In this document: piece by piece, positions 39,701-56,959 of the stretch
Numbering within the stretch: the stretch's first letter is position 1
Layout: each line of letters begins with the position of its first letter
Source of the DNA: a virus
Strand: one strand, 5' to 3'
Virus record (IMG/VR): IMGVR_UViG_3300026078_000029
Span: 1 to 64,000 of that record
DNA: 64,000 bases
Notes under the pieces: model-generated
Databases searched by the model: none
What the model was told of the DNA's origin: nothing
Seen by the model: the letters and a program-made list of their open reading frames with translations, nothing else
Position numbers and translations under genes: made by a program

Positions 39701-40023
39701 CGATCACCGCCCAAATAGCCTACATCAAATCACATCCGTTCTATAGGCTGGCGCTCGCAGACGAGGCGGCTATGGAGTTGTTACTATTCGAGGTTATGTT
39801 TCACACCTACACTGTTGCAAGTGGAAACTGCGCTCGCGCTTACAGGCAGGCTCGCCGGATGAATGGCCCTCAAATCGTTGAAGCGATACGGGATTGTGCG
39901 CCGCCAGCTAACCTTGACCTGCGGTTGCCGATACCGGAGCCTGAGTGTGTCGTTGTGTCAATTAAAAATGCCGCCAGTATTTCAGTGGCAGCTCAGGGGG
40001 AGTTAGGGGAGTTAGAAGGCTAA
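39697..40023 (+). CDS. Hypothetical protein with GTG start (108 aa)
   Basis: Starts with GTG coupled to the previous stop. Ala/Arg-rich N-terminal helices (NCARAYRQARRMNGP). Small phage protein of unknown function; converges with the 40020 gene. Confidence 0.65.
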   Translation: MTITAQIAYIKSHPFYRLALADEAAMELLLFEVMFHTYTVASGNCARAYRQARRMNGPQIVEAIRDCAPPANLDLRLPIPEPECVVVSIKNAASISVAAQGELGELEG

Positions 40024-40304
40024 GTCGCTGAAATTACGGAAGCTGTCGCCTCAGACACTAAAATAGTTCCGGTAAATCGTTGATTCTTATTGAACCATTG
40101 AATATTCACGGAGGTTAATGCCGGAGGGAACGCCGCTATTTGCGCTGCCGTTGCCGCTGATATACCCTGTATAGCTCGGTTACTCAGCCCAAATATAGGG
40201 CATGGTGACGTTGCTGTGGGTAATGTTCCAGGAAATGTTTGATCCTGTGTGCCAACCGCCATCCCGTTGAAGGATAGAAGGTGAACTGATTGTACTACTG
40301 CCAT
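40020..40304 (-). CDS. Hypothetical beta-rich protein (94 aa)
   Basis: Gly/Thr/Ala-rich, with conserved-looking IFGLSNRAIQGISAATAAQI. Overlaps the convergent 39697 gene by four bases. Not recognised. Confidence 0.55.
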   Translation of the reverse strand: MAVVQSVHLLSFNGMAVGTQDQTFPGTLPTATSPCPIFGLSNRAIQGISAATAAQIAAFPPALTSVNIQWFNKNQRFTGTILVSEATASVISAT

Positions 40305-40339: not shown

Positions 40340-40371
40340 TTTGGTAATGTGGTTTTTGAATTGTAGATTTA
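40340..40371 (+). promoter_or_regulatory. Bacteroidota-type promoter for RNA element C
   Basis: TTTG at 40340-40343, exactly 20 nt, then TAGATTTA at 40364-40371. The expected start is about 40376, the first base of the element C 5' segment. Confidence 0.65.
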
Positions 40372-40375
40372 CGTC

Positions 40376-40502
40376 AGCAATATGTTATTAGTGAAAATCA
40401 GTAAGACATTTAAATTATTCGCCCGGACTACCAGCACTTGTGATTTTCATGACATATTGCTTTATATCTTGTATTCTAATTGCTGCCGGGCGATATTTTT
40501 TT
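40376..40502 (+). ncRNA. Structured RNA element C (terminator with loop complementary to the 5' end)
   Basis: A 127-nt predicted RNA. The 5' segment AGCAATATGT (40376-40385) plus TGAAAATCA (40392-40400) pairs perfectly with TGATTTTCA (40441-40449) and ACATATTGCT (40452-40461). That second strand sits inside a terminator-like stem: CGCCCGG (40420-40426) and CAGCA (40432-40436) pair with TGCTG (40481-40485) and CCGGGCG (40486-40492), followed after three bases by seven T. The ATG at 40507 follows within five bases. The longest and clearest member of the A/B/C set. Confidence 0.8.
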
Positions 40503-40506
40503 AATT

Positions 40507-40776
40507 ATGAGCATCATTTCACTAACACCAGAACAGCACGAGCTTCTTGTCAAAGGAGGTATGGAGCGTTTTTTTTCGCCTATGTCCACTGAAGATATGT
40601 ACGAAATAATTCCGTTACATGCGCAGGAGGGCGGGGACGACATGGATATGTACTGTTATGAGCGAGAAGAAAGAGAGAAATGTTTGGATATAGCCTGCAA
40701 TGTTCCGGTTAAAAGTTTGGACGAGTTATTTTCTAACGCTGAAAAGATTCGGGTGTGGTTGGAGGGTGGTATCTAA
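40507..40776 (+). CDS. Acidic hypothetical protein (89 aa)
   Basis: Start at 40507, just after element C. Acidic helical protein (TPEQHELLVKGGMERFF) with a Cys-x-x-Ala pair. The stop overlaps the glycosyltransferase ATG by one base. Not recognised. Confidence 0.65.
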   Translation: MSIISLTPEQHELLVKGGMERFFSPMSTEDMYEIIPLHAQEGGDDMDMYCYEREEREKCLDIACNVPVKSLDELFSNAEKIRVWLEGGI

Positions 40777-41477
40777 TGTGTGCGCTCCTGAGTATGTGCG
40801 CCTATTGCACCCCCGAAAATGGTAAAGAAAAGTACCTGATACAGACGTTAGAATCGTTACGCGCTACCGTCAACTTTGATAAACATCGCCTAATTGTCAT
40901 CAATAACGGTATGGATGTTCCATGTCTGCACCAAAACTGGTTCACACTATTGGAGTCCGACACGAACTTAGGGACAGCAGAAGGCATAAACAGGGGGCTT
41001 ATACTTCGTGAGTATGGCGAGCCATTTGTAAAATGCGACGATGATTGGACGACGGAACACGTAGGGTGGGTTGATGATATGGTTCGAGTGCTATGCGAGC
41101 ATTCTGGGATTGGTATACTTGGCCTAAAGCGTGACGATGTGTACGGCGAGTTAATTGAGGATGGGGAATTGCTTTGGAACTCGGACATAATGGGGACTTG
41201 CACAATGTTTCAGCCGGAGATGTTGGAGAAAGTTGGCTACATGTGGAGTCCTGGGGTATATGGATATGATGACGTCACGATGTCAGTGAGGTCTGAGTGC
41301 GCAGGGTTTAAGAACGCCTTCATGAAAAACATACGCATAACTAACCTTGACGAGGGTGGAACTTTGTTCACGGAGTGGAAGAAAAGAGAGGCCAGCGAGC
41401 ATATGAATGAGGTATCTATAGTGTGTGATAAGTATAGGGACGGAACGTTGGGTGTTTATTATAATCCGTTTGAGTGA
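40776..41477 (+). CDS. GT2-like glycosyltransferase
   Basis: A 233-residue GT-A-type protein. RLIVINNGMD and NLGTAEGINRGL match GT2 nucleotide-sugar binding, KCDDDW is the DxD metal motif, and TCTMFQPEMLEKVGY plus GYDDVTMSVR fit the acceptor side. It would transfer a sugar from a nucleotide donor to an unknown acceptor. First enzyme of a glycosylation and methylation island; neighbours overlap by one to a few bases. Confidence 0.85.
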   Translation: MCALLSMCAYCTPENGKEKYLIQTLESLRATVNFDKHRLIVINNGMDVPCLHQNWFTLLESDTNLGTAEGINRGLILREYGEPFVKCDDDWTTEHVGWVDDMVRVLCEHSGIGILGLKRDDVYGELIEDGELLWNSDIMGTCTMFQPEMLEKVGYMWSPGVYGYDDVTMSVRSECAGFKNAFMKNIRITNLDEGGTLFTEWKKREASEHMNEVSIVCDKYRDGTLGVYYNPFE

Positions 41478-42088
41478 TGATCGAAGGAGATAGTGGTGAA
41501 TACGAATTTCTAACTGAAGCTGTGCGCTTATCTGCTAACATTGATGCGCCTACGGTTGAAATTGGCGTACGATCAGGACTTGGAAGTGCTACTATGATGG
41601 ATGCTATAGTTGAATATTGTCCAGGTAAAACTCACATCGGTATCGATCCTTACGGAAGCATCTTATACGCAATGAAAGAGAACATCGAACCGTGTCGGTT
41701 GGATTATACAAACGACATGTACAAGCAATGCATGGTAGATTTGTTTACGCATATCATTGGTAAACCGGTGGAGTTTGTTCATTTTAAGATGACTGATATT
41801 GAATATTTTGAACGATTTAGTGATGACACTCCCATTTATTGCACTAACGAATATTATTACAAAATTTATTCATGTGTGCATTTTGATGGGCCGCATACTG
41901 CCGATGCTGCTCTTTCTGAAGTTCATTTTTTCCATTACCGTACTCCATCTGGAGCAACCTTCGTATTCGATGATATTGGCGTTGAGGACTTTTTCTATAC
42001 GCATTCTCGCGTACACGATTGGTTGTTAAAACATGGGTGGGAATGTTTAAAAACGGGGGTTAAGAAGGCTTTATATCAGAAAAAATGA
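41477..42088 (+). CDS. SAM-dependent methyltransferase
   Basis: A 203-residue class I methyltransferase. PTVEIGVRSGLGSATMM is motif I, THIGIDPYG follows the acidic strand, and VHFDGPHT and FVFDDIG correspond to later motifs of the Methyltransf_24-like type. It lies between two glycosyltransferases, so sugar or capsid methylation is a reasonable guess. The ATG at 41477 overlaps the previous stop (TGATG). Confidence 0.82.
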   Translation: MIEGDSGEYEFLTEAVRLSANIDAPTVEIGVRSGLGSATMMDAIVEYCPGKTHIGIDPYGSILYAMKENIEPCRLDYTNDMYKQCMVDLFTHIIGKPVEFVHFKMTDIEYFERFSDDTPIYCTNEYYYKIYSCVHFDGPHTADAALSEVHFFHYRTPSGATFVFDDIGVEDFFYTHSRVHDWLLKHGWECLKTGVKKALYQKK

Positions 42089-42243
42089 GAATTTTACAAT
42101 TTATAGTATGGATGCTATACGGAATCACATTAGGAATGATGATTGGCGACAGAGGTATTTGGACTGGAATTCCTGTTATTATAGGTTTAACCATATCAAT
42201 AACTGCACTTATAATAAAATTAAATCCTAATGACCAACATTAA
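42085..42243 (+). CDS. Small two-helix membrane protein (52 aa)
   Basis: A 52-residue protein with two hydrophobic helices (residues of about 3-20 and 26-43). Coupled to the methyltransferase (ATGA) and overlapping the next gene by 14 bases. First of three micro membrane genes interleaved with the sugar enzymes. Confidence 0.6.
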   Translation: MRILQFIVWMLYGITLGMMIGDRGIWTGIPVIIGLTISITALIIKLNPNDQH

Positions 42244-42889
42244 ACTCATAACCGTATGCTCCCACCCTGAACACGCCGAAGCGCTGAGAAGAAGTGCGGA
42301 GTTGCATAATTGGGATTTCGTGTGCATTCACGTTCCTGAATGGAAGGGGTTTGGGATGAAACTTATTGAAACATACAACTATCTAAAGGCGCATCCTGAA
42401 GTAGAACGGTTTGTTTTTTGTGATGCTTTTGATGTAGTGGTATTTGGGACGCCGGAGGAGTTTGAGGAGAAACATATTTGGCATGACAATATGCTATTAT
42501 CTTGTGAACGTGGGCTGTGGCCTCCAATATTACATCCATTTAAAGAAAGGTATATTGAGTATAAGCACAGGTTTAATTATATTAATAGTGGTTTGTATTA
42601 CTCACCTTCAGGCACTTTCATTAGCTTAGTAGAGAAATACAAGCCAAGTTTCGATACAGACGATCAGTATTGGATGAATATGGTTTACCTATTTGAAGGG
42701 ATGGATTTAAACATAATGGAAGATAGTTGCCAAAGAGTTTTTAACTCTCATAGTTTTATAGATGAGGGGCAGTATGGGTATGATGGGGGTCGTATTCAAA
42801 TAATGAATTGCGAACCGGTGTTCGTTCACTCGAACGGAAGATCAGTTGATCCGAAATTAGATGAATTAGTAAAGGAGATGTTGGGATGA
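42230..42889 (+). CDS. PLOD-like glycosyltransferase
   Basis: A 219-residue GT-A protein resembling the glycosyltransferase domain of procollagen lysyl hydroxylases. VFCDAFDVVVFG carries the DxxD metal site, YINSGLYYSP and DTDDQYWMN are typical of that group. The acceptor is unknown. Overlaps the previous micro-gene and the next membrane gene (ATGA). Confidence 0.85.
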   Translation: MTNIKLITVCSHPEHAEALRRSAELHNWDFVCIHVPEWKGFGMKLIETYNYLKAHPEVERFVFCDAFDVVVFGTPEEFEEKHIWHDNMLLSCERGLWPPILHPFKERYIEYKHRFNYINSGLYYSPSGTFISLVEKYKPSFDTDDQYWMNMVYLFEGMDLNIMEDSCQRVFNSHSFIDEGQYGYDGGRIQIMNCEPVFVHSNGRSVDPKLDELVKEMLG

Positions 42890-43107
42890 AAACTATATTT
42901 GCTATATTTTTAGTGGTATTATTAATATCAGCACTTGATTTACTTTTCTTTTTATTATATAAAGAAACATTCCTTATGGAAAATTCAAATAGCGTAAAAG
43001 AAAGTTTTCAAGTATGTAAGTGGGTTGTAATGCCGATGTTGATAATACTTTTTAACTCTTTAGGAATATTCTTTGTAAAATTTATATACGATAGTAGAAA
43101 CTTATGA
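42886..43107 (+). CDS. Two-helix membrane protein (73 aa)
   Basis: Two hydrophobic segments (residues of about 4-25 and 47-68) separated by a charged loop. Four-base overlaps with both neighbours. Could anchor the sugar enzymes to the membrane. Not recognised. Confidence 0.65.
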   Translation: MKTIFAIFLVVLLISALDLLFFLLYKETFLMENSNSVKESFQVCKWVVMPMLIILFNSLGIFFVKFIYDSRNL

Positions 43108-43799
43108 CCCTCGCCGACCTCCGCGACAACTGGCAAGACGTGCCAGCGTTCCATCAATCGATACACGAGCATTTCATGGCACTTGTTAATGCTGACCCGA
43201 AACTCGACGCCCACAGAACATATGTTGAATCAAAAGTATTCGGCATGGGTGAACGTTCATTCTGGTGGTTATGGAAGCTACTACTCGAAACACTACCCGA
43301 AAACCCAAAGCTGCTTGAGGTGGGAGTTTTTAAGGCGGCTACCATGTCGCTCTGGAAGATGCTGCGGCCGGACGCTACCTGCTATGGCGTTACGCCACTT
43401 GACGGACGCGGCACAGGTTGGACAGAAGACGACTACTTCGCACATATCACTAAGATACACCACGATTTTGGGTTGGATATGCCAATTCTGTATGTGGGTG
43501 GAAGCGCTGAAACTCCAATCATTGAACAAGTATATCACTCACGTCCGTATGATATTATTTATGTGGATGGCGATCATAGCGAAGTTGGGGCTTTAGCAGA
43601 CCTTAATAACTACGCAAGATGTGTAAAACAAGGCGGCTATTTAGTCATTGATGATTGTTGCTGTGACTTTCATATGCAATTCGGCTATTTCCAAGGCATA
43701 CAATCAGTTCAAGACGCTTTTGACCAGTGGGATAGTTCTGAGTTTAAGTTTGTTTGCAATGTTGTTCACCTTAGAGTTTTGAGGAGGATATCAATATGA
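43104..43799 (+). CDS. SAM-dependent methyltransferase (Methyltransf_24-like)
   Basis: A 231-residue protein. KLLEVGVFKAATMSLW is motif I, DIIYVDGDHSEVGALADL and GGYLVIDDCCCDFH are the typical later motifs (acid-rich DGDH metal or substrate region), as in macrocin/CmcI-like O-methyltransferases. It may methylate the sugar made by the neighbours. Coupled by ATGA on both sides. Confidence 0.87.
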   Translation: MTLADLRDNWQDVPAFHQSIHEHFMALVNADPKLDAHRTYVESKVFGMGERSFWWLWKLLLETLPENPKLLEVGVFKAATMSLWKMLRPDATCYGVTPLDGRGTGWTEDDYFAHITKIHHDFGLDMPILYVGGSAETPIIEQVYHSRPYDIIYVDGDHSEVGALADLNNYARCVKQGGYLVIDDCCCDFHMQFGYFQGIQSVQDAFDQWDSSEFKFVCNVVHLRVLRRISI

Positions 43800-43918
43800 C
43801 TTTTATAAAACAACACTGGCCTGCCATCCTCGCATCCTTAGGTTTCGTTGCACTTATTGGTGTGTCGGCGTGGTTGGTGGCAGGGCATTGGGAGTGGGTT
43901 AGGGGGACTCTTAAATGA
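43796..43918 (+). CDS. Tiny membrane protein (40 aa)
   Basis: A 40-residue protein with one hydrophobic helix (PAILASLGFVALIGVSAWLV). A GAGGAGG-type Shine-Dalgarno lies upstream. Start and stop both overlap neighbours (ATGA), so it is very likely translated. Confidence 0.65.
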   Translation: MTFIKQHWPAILASLGFVALIGVSAWLVAGHWEWVRGTLK

Positions 43919-44874
43919 AGCGAATCCTCTACTACAAATTCTTTGACGGCGGCTCAGAGTTCTACCGAATCAAACCTCTCGAATACATCCACGATAAAGA
44001 ACTTACCCTTGTTGAGTGCCGGGACTCAACGCTAAACTTCCAATTACTTGACTCCTTTGACACTGTGTTCCTGCTCAGGCCACAGGGTCAAATCGCTATT
44101 GACTTTATCAAAACAGCTAAACGTTGGCACAAGAAGGTGATAATAGACTGGGATGACTCCCCCCTGTCATTAGGTACGCTGAATCCGCTCTATATGCAAT
44201 ACGAACACGAAAAGAAATCGACCATTGACTGCATTACATTAGCAGATGATGTTTGGGTGTCTACTCCTGAAATTAAGAGCGCATTTAGGTTGTATAACAA
44301 GAACATTCACGTCATCCCAAACGCCCACGATGACCTTCTGCTGCCCGTTCGCAACAAACGCCCATTTACGTACAACAAAATAGCTACCTATCGCGGTGGA
44401 GACTCCCATTATGGCGATATGTACGACATCGGTGTACCGGAGAAAATCATCAGTATGGTAAACGGTAATAAGGATTGGCAATTCGTTTTCTTCGGACAGC
44501 GATTTCATTATTTAGAAAACAGGTGTGGGGATAACTACATTGCCTATACAGGTGGTCTGAATATGGTGGAGTATATGCAGTGGATGATGAATCAGAACGC
44601 TTGCGTAGCCTTTTACCCGCTCGCTAATACGAAGTTTAATAGGAGTAAGTCTAATATCTTCTTCTTAGAAATGGTATACTGCGGGTCAGCTGTATTTGGG
44701 AATAAAGATTTGCCGGAGTACGACAATGTACCATGCTATCAGTGGCACGAAAATATTACGAAGGTATCTGAGTCGGAGTTGAAAATGGCTAATGAACTGT
44801 CTTGGAATTACATTAAAGAAAATTTATTATTGTCTAAAGTAAACTTGTTAAGAATAGAAAGGCTGAAAGCATGA
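43915..44874 (+). CDS. GT-B fold glycosyltransferase (GT4-like)
   Basis: A 319-residue protein. The N-terminal half has WDDSPLSLG and the VWVSTPEI segment; the C-terminal half has NAHDDLLLP, an FFGQRF strand, and the donor-binding region NIFFLEMVYCGSAVFG. This is the general layout of small GT4-like enzymes that use nucleotide sugars. Acceptor unknown. Ends with an ATGA overlap with the GroES-like gene. Confidence 0.78.
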   Translation: MKRILYYKFFDGGSEFYRIKPLEYIHDKELTLVECRDSTLNFQLLDSFDTVFLLRPQGQIAIDFIKTAKRWHKKVIIDWDDSPLSLGTLNPLYMQYEHEKKSTIDCITLADDVWVSTPEIKSAFRLYNKNIHVIPNAHDDLLLPVRNKRPFTYNKIATYRGGDSHYGDMYDIGVPEKIISMVNGNKDWQFVFFGQRFHYLENRCGDNYIAYTGGLNMVEYMQWMMNQNACVAFYPLANTKFNRSKSNIFFLEMVYCGSAVFGNKDLPEYDNVPCYQWHENITKVSESELKMANELSWNYIKENLLLSKVNLLRIERLKA

Positions 44875-45479
44875 AGTGCATCCATAATCGCATACGTGTA
44901 AAGTTTGAAACGACTCATAATAAGATTTTCGATGTAGGAGGTGTTCAGCTAATACGCCCCGATGACTGGCGCGACACATATGATGAAAAGTCACAGGAGA
45001 ACGTAAATTATCTCGAAACGAAACCACAGATTTGTACAGTGCTGGCGACTAATGACAAGTACCCGTATAAGGTAGGTGACAGGCTATTCGTCCATTACAT
45101 GGCGCACGAGACGGCCAGCTGCGGCGACATCTTGACTAACGAAGCCTTCATCATAGCCGACTACGTCTTTTTTACCTTCCGGACTGACGAAGAATGGGAA
45201 CTTGTGCCAGGAACGTACTTGGGCAAGCAGGTTTATACGCCTGAACAGGCCACAAAATCGGGTCTTATCTACGAATTGGGCGGCAAAAAAGAGAACTTGC
45301 AGGTACAGATTACACATGTACCGCCCGATGCTGAAGAAATTTCAATTGGGGATACGGTATTGTCCATAGATAAGTACAACTATGAGTTCACCATCTACCC
45401 CGACAGATACATCCGACTCACCAAAGAAGAAATTGTAGGAAAAGTTATCCATGCCGAAAAAGAAGAAGCTATCGCATGA
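44871..45479 (+). CDS. Tandem GroES-like protein (candidate co-chaperonin)
   Basis: A 202-residue protein that looks like two GroES-type beta-barrels in a row. Domain 1 (1-85): NRIRVKFETT, VGGVQL, and KVGDRLFVHY. Domain 2 (115-197): LQVQITHVPPD, SIGDTVLSIDKYNYEF, then RYIRLTKEEIVGKV, which parallels the last GroES strands. T4 uses a GroES-like gp31 with host GroEL to fold its capsid protein; position just before terminase and capsid genes suggests a similar role. The match is by eye; needs a structure comparison. Confidence 0.65.
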   Translation: MKCIHNRIRVKFETTHNKIFDVGGVQLIRPDDWRDTYDEKSQENVNYLETKPQICTVLATNDKYPYKVGDRLFVHYMAHETASCGDILTNEAFIIADYVFFTFRTDEEWELVPGTYLGKQVYTPEQATKSGLIYELGGKKENLQVQITHVPPDAEEISIGDTVLSIDKYNYEFTIYPDRYIRLTKEEIVGKVIHAEKEEAIA

Positions 45480-45990
45480 AGTTATAGCCGAACTGAGGGC
45501 AAAGATTAAGTCAATGAACTTAAATCTTCACCGGATTCGCAAGCAGTACTACATGTACGGTTACAATAAGTGTGTAAAAGAGTTAGGCAAGCCTATTAAG
45601 CCGCCAAAAATTAAGAAAGTTAAGGTAGTTAAGAAGGTTACAAAAGAAGTAACCGTTCCAATACAGCGCGGACGAGGCGAATTTGCCGACATGGTGTCTG
45701 ATACCATAGTTGTAAGCAGGTTTTGCGCAGAAAGCGGCATTCATATCACCATCTTCCCCATTTTATTAGCTATTCTAACCCTCGAGACCCCAACTTTGCC
45801 TAAATTAAAGCAATTTGGGTGGGATTATAGTGTTTTGAGATACCGAATGCAGTACTTGGAGCAAGAGGGATGGGTGGAAGTGTTCAGGAACAGTACCAAA
45901 GCAATGACAATCGTGCCAAGTTTGAAAGGTCAGAAGTTATTTAGTAGCTTTAAGGAATATTATGGAAACAGCAAGCGCAAACCTGATTGA
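45451..45990 (+). CDS. Winged-helix protein, possible terminase small subunit
   Basis: A 179-residue protein. Lys-rich N-terminus (MPKKKK and a KKVTKEV linker) and a C-terminal winged-helix-like part (LKQFGWDYSVLRYRMQYLEQEGWVEVF). DNA-binding and immediate position two genes before TerL make TerS likely. Overlaps the previous gene by 29 bases. Confidence 0.6.
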   Translation: MPKKKKLSHEVIAELRAKIKSMNLNLHRIRKQYYMYGYNKCVKELGKPIKPPKIKKVKVVKKVTKEVTVPIQRGRGEFADMVSDTIVVSRFCAESGIHITIFPILLAILTLETPTLPKLKQFGWDYSVLRYRMQYLEQEGWVEVFRNSTKAMTIVPSLKGQKLFSSFKEYYGNSKRKPD

Positions 45991-46228
45991 AGAACTGAAT
46001 AAGATTTTCGAGATATATACCAACGAGCTGAAGGCGTGGCGTGAGGGGAAAGGGAAAGGGACGTATCTTCTCGACGAGGATATGTTCGATGTTGTTATCA
46101 AACTACTGGACAAGTCTGATAAGATTAAGAAGTTGAATCAGACGGATGAGGGCGAGAGCGGGGGGAAAGCGGAAGGGGCTAAGGTTCGTAATATTCAGGA
46201 CATCATACTAAATGGTACTAAGAAATGA
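45962..46228 (+). CDS. Small helical protein, alternative terminase small subunit
   Basis: An 88-residue helical, charged protein directly before the terminase large subunit, with an ATGA overlap. It lacks a clear DNA-binding motif, but size and coupling fit a terminase partner. The choice between it and the 45451 protein as TerS is open. Confidence 0.6.
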   Translation: METASANLIEELNKIFEIYTNELKAWREGKGKGTYLLDEDMFDVVIKLLDKSDKIKKLNQTDEGESGGKAEGAKVRNIQDIILNGTKK

Positions 46229-48309
46229 CGGTTCAGGAGATTAAAGATGCTATTGGGCGGTTTGAGAGGGAGAGACTCATTGGTGAAATAACAGTAATCC
46301 AACCTGAACCGCCGAAGGATTACAAGACTATTGCCAATTGGAACTTACCTGCTAAGGAACAGTTTTTTACTTACACGGTACAGCCAGACCGTAACCGTGA
46401 TCCATCGCAAGAGTTTTTAGTTACCGAAGCACTCCGGTTCAAGTATGGATATTGGCTATTCATCAATGGTGAACTATATTGGTTCACACCTTTCTACTAT
46501 TTTTTTCTGAACTACTGGACTGACAAAGGCAAGCGGATGAGGTTTGTTGATAGTCAGTTACACGCCTCTCTATGGTTTTGGCAGATAGAGCAGATGGATA
46601 ATATGGCTGGCGGTAATCTCATCACTAACCGGCGTTTTGGTAAAACGGTCTGGTCTACCGGATTGGCTTATTTCCGAACAATGACTAATCCATTCCATCG
46701 TTGCGGTATACAATCAAAGACGAATGCCGACGGCAAATTGGTTTTCAGTAAGCTGATAAAATCATGGCAGAAATTACCCAATTGGTTAAAGCCTATTGAT
46801 AGTGGCGAAACGCGCCCTGCTACTGTGTTAGAGTTTAGTGAGCCTCGTACGCGCAGCACAAATAAGGAAAAGAAAGTATACGGGGAGGTATTGGATAGCT
46901 CAATTGACTTTAGGGCATCCGAGGAAGATGGATATGACGGGGATGAATTGCACACTTACTTTGAGGATGAATTTGGGAAATGTATATCGTCCAATACCGA
47001 TACAAGATGGGGCGTTGTGCAATTCTGTTTGGTTATAGGCGCTAATATCGTAGGTAAAGCTATACGTACTACCACTGTAGAGGAAATGGAGCGCCGGGGC
47101 GGTAAAAACGCCAAGAAAACATGGGACGATAGTATGATTTCAACCCTTAATCCTGAGACAAATCGTACCAATTCTATGTTAACCAACCTGTTCATCCCCG
47201 CAGATTTCGGATTTTCAGGGCATCACCCAATAACAAAACAGCCTTTTGTTGATGAGTACGGTATATCTAATAGGGATTTGGCGCGAGAATACATTCTCTC
47301 TACTTGGGCTAACCTTAAAGATGAAAAGCTAAAGGCCGCGCAGCGTAAAAATCCCCTTACCCTCAAACACGCTTTTCAAGTATCCGAAAACTCCGGTACG
47401 TTCGACCAAGAGATATACGACTATTTGGAACAACAGAAAGAATATTTGGACGGCACAAGCCTGACAGGCGAGAAAGCGCCCAAAAATTTGCGCCGCACAG
47501 TTACCTTCTACCGCGACATAGATGGATTGGCAAAGTGGCGAGACGACCCGCAAGGGCATGCCTCATTCATTTGGGATTTCCCAAAGCCAACCATGTCCAA
47601 TGCCCGTAAGCCGGGCGAACTAAACCAGTGGCGACCGCTCAACTGTGAGGAGTTTGTTGGGGGATGTGACCCATTCGCTGCTACGATTGTGTCTGGACCA
47701 GGCTCTATGGGTGTGCTGTACATTTTCCGTAAGGGCAACGCTGATGACTACGAAAATTCGGGTCTACCCATTCTACGTTACGCCCAACGTACACGGCGCG
47801 TAGAAGACTTCCATAAAAACGTTATGATTATCCTGCAATACTTTGGGTGCAAGGTAAACTATGAATCGGATGTACCGGACTATTACGAAACATTTGTTCG
47901 AGAGTTGTTTCGCAACTATGTCATGTGGACGCCTCGGGTAGCAATTGATCCTACCAAACGAAACCATACGCCCCGTCCGGGAACATTATCAAAAGACCCC
48001 TACGCTTTTCAGAAGCAATTTCAGGTATTGGTTTCCTACTTGTACGCAAGATGGCACAAAATATACTTTATTGAACTGATTGACCAATTAATTGATTTCG
48101 ATGTGAACGACCGCACCAAGTCAGATGAGGTGATCGCTTTCTCTATGGCGCTGTTAGGTGGATGGGAGACGGGAGAGCAGCCTAAGAAAGATACGCGGAC
48201 ACCACAGTTTTTGAAGTTTAAGAATAATCAGAAGCGGCAGGATGCTAATGGAGGGTATATTGATTTATCGAAATATCATGAGCCTATTAGTGATAAAATA
48301 CCGTTTTAG
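46225..48309 (+). CDS. terL: Terminase large subunit
   Basis: A 694-residue packaging ATPase/nuclease. Walker A-like LITNRRFGKT at residues of about 132-141, Walker B with an acidic pair in HTYFEDEFGK, and C-terminal nuclease region (GGCDPFAATIV; SDEVIAFSMALLG with the final acidic residues). The long N-terminal part before the ATPase is typical of terminases from Bacteroidota phages of the crAss-like type. It pumps DNA into the prohead through the portal encoded just downstream. Confidence 0.9.
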   Translation: MTVQEIKDAIGRFERERLIGEITVIQPEPPKDYKTIANWNLPAKEQFFTYTVQPDRNRDPSQEFLVTEALRFKYGYWLFINGELYWFTPFYYFFLNYWTDKGKRMRFVDSQLHASLWFWQIEQMDNMAGGNLITNRRFGKTVWSTGLAYFRTMTNPFHRCGIQSKTNADGKLVFSKLIKSWQKLPNWLKPIDSGETRPATVLEFSEPRTRSTNKEKKVYGEVLDSSIDFRASEEDGYDGDELHTYFEDEFGKCISSNTDTRWGVVQFCLVIGANIVGKAIRTTTVEEMERRGGKNAKKTWDDSMISTLNPETNRTNSMLTNLFIPADFGFSGHHPITKQPFVDEYGISNRDLAREYILSTWANLKDEKLKAAQRKNPLTLKHAFQVSENSGTFDQEIYDYLEQQKEYLDGTSLTGEKAPKNLRRTVTFYRDIDGLAKWRDDPQGHASFIWDFPKPTMSNARKPGELNQWRPLNCEEFVGGCDPFAATIVSGPGSMGVLYIFRKGNADDYENSGLPILRYAQRTRRVEDFHKNVMIILQYFGCKVNYESDVPDYYETFVRELFRNYVMWTPRVAIDPTKRNHTPRPGTLSKDPYAFQKQFQVLVSYLYARWHKIYFIELIDQLIDFDVNDRTKSDEVIAFSMALLGGWETGEQPKKDTRTPQFLKFKNNQKRQDANGGYIDLSKYHEPISDKIPF

Positions 48310-56927: not shown

Positions 56928-56959
56928 TTTGTTTTAAAGATAAGTATTTTGTAGATTTG
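56928..56959 (+). promoter_or_regulatory. Bacteroidota-type promoter
   Basis: TTTG at 56928-56931, exactly 20 nt, then TAGATTTG at 56952-56959, both consensus. The ATG of the next gene is 13 bases on. Confidence 0.7.

Follow-up and report, generated by a model that had tools for sequence, protein, structure and literature searches.

At the start of the virion-gene operon of an uncultured phage, the messenger RNA leader contains a pseudoknot that overlaps a very short reading frame. This design is kept in at least 23 distinct related phages, although nearly every paired base and the small peptide have changed. The structure and the leader frame are well supported. The favored interpretation, a translation-responsive attenuator that registers whether a ribosome is present, is held with only about even confidence, and the direction and target of regulation are inferred.

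A pseudoknot at the head of the operon

The DNA analyzed (hereafter the window) is a stretch of 64,000 nt, positions 1 to 64,000 of IMG/VR virus record IMGVR_UViG_3300026078_000029. The element and its surroundings, all on the plus strand, comprise the following:

40340..40371 (+), Bacteroidetes-type promoter: TTTG (40340-40343), 20 nt, then TAGATTTA (40364-40371)
40376..40385 (+), 5' arm of P1a (AGCAATATGT), pairing with 40452-40461
40391..40400 (+), 5' arm of P1b (GTGAAAATCA), containing the conserved leader start codon (GTG here, mostly ATG in relatives)
40391..40504 (+), leader reading frame from GTG 40391 (or in-frame ATG 40382) to TAA 40502-40504, reading KISKTFKLFARTTSTCDFHDILLYILYSNCCRAIFF after the start codon
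40401..40418 (+), A-rich loop L1 (GTAAGACATTTAAATTAT), about 18-22 nt in most members
40419..40436 (+), 5' arm of P2 (TCGCCCGG at 40419-40426, a 5-nt bulge, CAGCA at 40432-40436)
40441..40450 (+), 3' arm of P1b (TGATTTTCAT)
40452..40461 (+), 3' arm of P1a (ACATATTGCT)
40462..40480 (+), pyrimidine-rich loop L3 (family theme ..TATCTTCATTT..)
40481..40493 (+), 3' arm of P2 (TGCTGCCGGGCGA; TGCTG at 40481-40485, CCGGGCGA at 40486-40493)
40496..40502 (+), T7 run after P2, a terminator-like tail
40507..40776 (+), first operon gene, 89 aa, function unknown (not the same gene in every member)
40785..48309 (+), downstream operon: glycosyltransferases and methyltransferases, GroES-like protein, terminase large subunit

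An initial sequence-only reading had described 19 of 19 possible pairs between 40376-40400 and 40441-40461 (helices of 10 and 9), crossed by a 12-pair helix and followed by seven T directly before the ATG at 40507, with a promoter placing the transcription start at the first paired base. What it observed is in the sequence. We count one more pair in each of two helices: P1a has 10 pairs, P1b has 10 including one G-U (the count of 9 leaves out that G-U), and P2, which crosses P1, has 13 across its bulge and ends 13 nt before the ATG. The promoter matches the sigma-ABfr consensus TTTG / TAnnTTTG (PMC7366714), and a -7-like box precedes most of the members found.

The earlier reading also judged such interlocked complementarity very unlikely by chance, and this is borne out. 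A descriptor requiring P1 crossing P2, P2 ending 8-21 nt before a start codon, and a -7 box upstream scores 56 here; the next best place in the window scores 46, and none of 40 dinucleotide-shuffled windows has a place at 56. Ordinary nested minimum-energy folding is only mildly better than shuffles (z -2.0), on both strands, as expected for a pseudoknot that such programs cannot model. An alternative 7-bp pairing of 40375-40381 with 40479-40485 is possible in the window, but it is not seen in the member L139 and was dropped.

No known RNA family accounts for the element. Rfam 15 gave zero matches at gathering score in the window and in 15 loci that hold members, and relaxed searches of three members gave only chance-level hits. 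A tRNA/tmRNA search also returned nothing, with no tmRNA (ARAGORN model) in the window.

Relatives and covariation

The same architecture occurs at the head of the same operon in 22 further distinct uncultured phages, plus one near-copy (related loci are given here by L numbers). The near-copy and closest relative, L015, has the element nearly unchanged, including the promoter, while its neighborhood differs more. More informative are distant phages found through operon proteins. By looking only at the place upstream of the operon, and not by a structure search, we first saw the same plan in L007, L008, L009, L010, L013, and L014; descriptor scans and further reading of operon heads brought the set to 23 distinct members plus L015. 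The members precede different first genes: the 89-aa unknown, a glycosyltransferase, or, in phages in which no glycosylation genes were detected (L249, L264), a GroES-like gene shortly before the terminase. The element therefore goes with the operon head, not with glycosylation.

Upstream of the element, a 94-aa minus-strand gene of unknown function (40020-40304 in the window) is conserved on the opposite strand in L007, L015, L170, and L178. In L015, a reading frame resembling a GIY-YIG homing endonuclease (by eye only; L015:4150-4760) lies between this gene and the promoter of the element; it is absent from the window.

DNA similarity to sequenced phages was not detected, and cultured relatives identified by terminase (Pachyviridae, Elemovirus, Maribacter phage) show no such element within the 16 kb upstream of the terminase. 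In a partial DNA pattern scan of viral contigs, new hits were chance and only already known members were genuine. Among bacterial genomes there were only two glycosyltransferase relatives, and no element was found near them. A pseudoknot with the same topology (11-bp P1, 7-8-bp P2, TTTATTATT) at L012:429-526 has no promoter box or operon context; it is either chance or a displaced relative, and was left out.

Lack of covariation had been named beforehand as the observation that would count against the structure, and the covariation found is strong. Because a MAFFT alignment does not register the arms, pairs were counted helix by helix, by position from the outer end. P1a starts G-C, C-G in 22 of 23 members; further in, pairs occur in three to five types, with 5-13 members changed on both sides relative to the commonest pair, and P2 behaves likewise. 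Overall, pairs 3-10 of P1a and 1-9 of P2 change on both sides while staying paired (changes are counted per member, not per event on a tree). Arms of the same member pair at 99%, whereas arms of different members pair at 62% (P1a) and 49% (P2). In 21 of 24 elements no shuffle of 200 reaches the observed combined score, and the other three have 1 or 2. It should be kept in mind that several members were recognized by their complementarity, so the shuffle test is not independent for those, although it is for the ones found by position. The element thus is an H-type pseudoknot with two crossing helices conserved by covariation.

A leader reading frame without a conserved peptide

The sequence-only reading missed a leader reading frame that overlaps the element (40391 or 40382 to 40504). 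In most members, an ATG or GTG about 15-24 nt after the start of P1, inside the second part of that helix, opens a frame through the whole structure. In 17 of 23 members the frame (31-42 codons) has its start in the expected place, in the 5' part, and its stop within -12..+22 nt of the next ATG, against 1.7 expected by chance (P about 7e-16); the thresholds for this test were set after seeing the first members. Frame 0 has 4 stops in 594 codons, against 40/589 and 32/577 in the other two frames. In 16 of 21 members the start codon itself lies in P1b pairing.

Neither the peptide nor its register is kept. The start codon sits 21-28 nt before P2 in 17 of 19 members, but the remainder of this distance modulo 3 is spread about evenly over 0, 1, and 2. 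The peptides have no conserved column except Met, show no run of control codons, and have no PHROG match, so a conserved leader peptide was rejected. L009 and L197, which are related in sequence, read the homologous bases in different frames, both open. Openness is kept and content is not, so translation itself, rather than the product, seems to be selected.

The frame is not indispensable. L008 and L250 lack a clear spanning frame, and L264 has only a weak TTG candidate. Members with a shorter frame (L014, 12 codons; L249, 11; L140, 25) still end near or beyond the P2 5' arm.

The terminator-like end

The 8 nt after P2 hold 5.7 T on average over 23 members (71%), against 2.4 (30%) at the matching distance before 318 other gene starts of the same contigs. 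P2 is GC-rich and P1 mostly is not. The T-run is weak in L007 and L250, however, and the loop enclosed by P2 is long (about 45-60 nt) for an intrinsic terminator. Frameshifting was considered and rejected, because the structure lies upstream, not downstream, of the T-run.

Interpretation

The interpretation in the sequence-only reading is partly supported. It is right that this is a real structured RNA element at the head of the glycosylation/packaging operon, and the element has no Rfam match. The implied riboswitch reading is not supported: apart from the outer G-C/C-G of P1, the A-rich loop, and the pyrimidine-rich loop, there is no conserved single-stranded core, and the first gene differs between members. 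Nor is the element purely noncoding, given the leader frame in most members.

We favor, with about even confidence, an mRNA leader that controls the phage's late (virion surface and packaging) operon according to whether a ribosome enters the short leader frame. In this view, transcription starts at about 40376, and P1 folds as soon as its 3' arm is made, burying the leader start codon in P1b. P2 then pairs across it, forming a pseudoknot whose GC-rich stem plus T-run resembles an intrinsic terminator and ends 8-23 nt (most often 13) before the next start codon, so that transcription would stop or the downstream start would be blocked. If a ribosome loads on the leader before P1 closes, it would cover or pass the P2 5' arm, P2 could not form, RNA polymerase would go on, and the ribosome would end at the next gene's start, where it could re-initiate. 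The sequences themselves establish the helices and their covariation, the conserved leader start, the open frame, the stop next to the next start, and the T-run; the folding order, the stopping of transcription (or blocking of translation) by P2, its dependence on leader translation, and the ribosome as the input are inferences from sequence alone. The shortened frames of L014, L140, and L249 fit this model, whereas L008, L250, and L264 do not. No general, mutually exclusive antiterminator hairpin was seen; UCAU, the complement of an AUGA start and thus a possible second partner for the leader start codon, recurs in loop L3 in 10 of 21 members (L007, L010, L139, L155, L181, L170, L180, L179, L014, and L140).

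The main rival is a purely translational switch, which we consider possible but less likely. Here, P2 would not terminate transcription; the pseudoknot would keep ribosomes from the next gene's start, which would be opened by ribosomes that translate the leader and re-initiate, as in translational attenuators. The position of the leader stop in 17 of 23 members and the weak T-runs of L007 and L250 are consistent with this, as is the fact that Bacteroidetes lack Shine-Dalgarno sites and that initiation there depends on mRNA structure (PMC6847099). However, P2 ends about 13 nt before the AUG and so flanks rather than covers the start, and the T-run directly after a GC-rich stem, far above what other gene starts show, would be left unexplained.

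An operator for a phage or host RNA-binding protein that represses the operon by stabilizing the pseudoknot is unlikely. There is a phage precedent, in that T4 gp32 binds a 5' pseudoknot in its own mRNA (PMC3014915), and the single position at the operon head fits. On the other hand, stem sequences have turned over almost completely, and no common exposed core was seen except the A-rich and pyrimidine-rich loops. The first gene is an 89-aa unknown, a glycosyltransferase, or a GroES-like protein in different members, not the same RNA-binding protein in all, so simple autoregulation by the first product is unlikely, and the leader frame is not explained.

Still less likely, the element might mainly be the source of a small phage RNA (about 125 nt) released at the T-run and acting in trans, with the leader frame as a by-product. 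A consensus promoter and a terminator-like end do delimit a compact RNA, but the arms diverge freely with no conserved seed, the place directly before the operon start is constant, and the open frame is unexplained. A metabolite riboswitch of an unknown class is very unlikely: although a pseudoknot followed by a terminator-like tail is a common riboswitch plan, and SAM-II leaders in Sinorhizobium combine pseudoknot, terminator, and alternative start codons (PMC9373788), there is no Rfam match, no invariant ligand-pocket nucleotides across the 23 members, and no shared metabolic gene downstream.

Relation to known systems

Ribosome-mediated and translational attenuators (leader-peptide systems such as trp, erm, and cat) likewise have a short leader frame starting just after the transcription start, overlapping RNA structure, a terminator-like stem or occluded downstream start, and a stop close to the next gene. 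The present element has the short frame at a fixed place before the first gene and the GC-rich stem followed by a T-run. It differs in having no conserved peptide or control codons, in a frame that even shifts relative to the RNA, in a pseudoknot in which the leader start codon itself is base-paired, and in its place on a phage late operon; we therefore do not class it as a classical leader-peptide attenuator, but only as working like one. The T4-type gene 32 leader is also a phage mRNA 5' pseudoknot upstream of a start codon (PMC3014915), but here the helices are longer, there is an overlapping leader frame and a T-run, the downstream genes differ, and the first gene is not a known RNA-binding protein. 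SAM-II type leaders share the H-type topology, with termination and alternative starts reported in Sinorhizobium (PMC9373788); the present element has no Rfam match, conserved binding core, or shared metabolic gene. In repY/repZ control of IncI-type plasmids, translation of a leader frame is coupled to a pseudoknot that governs the next gene; there the pseudoknot activates and an antisense RNA is involved, and here the pseudoknot contains the leader start codon.

We regard the element as a new RNA family. Its parts (leader frame, terminator-like stem, pseudoknot) are of known kinds; the combination, its place at the head of a phage late operon, the pairing of the leader start codon, and the conservation of openness without peptide or register have, to our knowledge, not been described, and literature searches, which did not extend to most subscription papers, found no such phage element. 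It remains possible, although we rate it as slightly less likely than not, that this is a new class of regulatory RNA in Bacteroidetes phages, a pseudoknot that senses ribosome entry. In that case, selection would keep the frame open and its start codon hidden in the knot, but neither the peptide nor even the frame register, and translation itself would be the signal that releases the late operon.

How Bacteroidetes phages time their late genes is, as far as we know, poorly understood, and structured leaders for phage operons are rarely documented; a 2010 review called the T4 gene 32 pseudoknot possibly the only viral case used for translational autoregulation (PMC3014915). The element described here is widespread, quickly evolving but structurally constant, with a built-in leader frame in an unannotated place, and it makes a definite prediction, that ribosome entry decides late expression. 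Another consensus promoter in the window (56929-56959, plus strand; TTG-N20ish-TAGATTTG), also present in L002, has an ATG about 15 nt downstream but lacks the knot.
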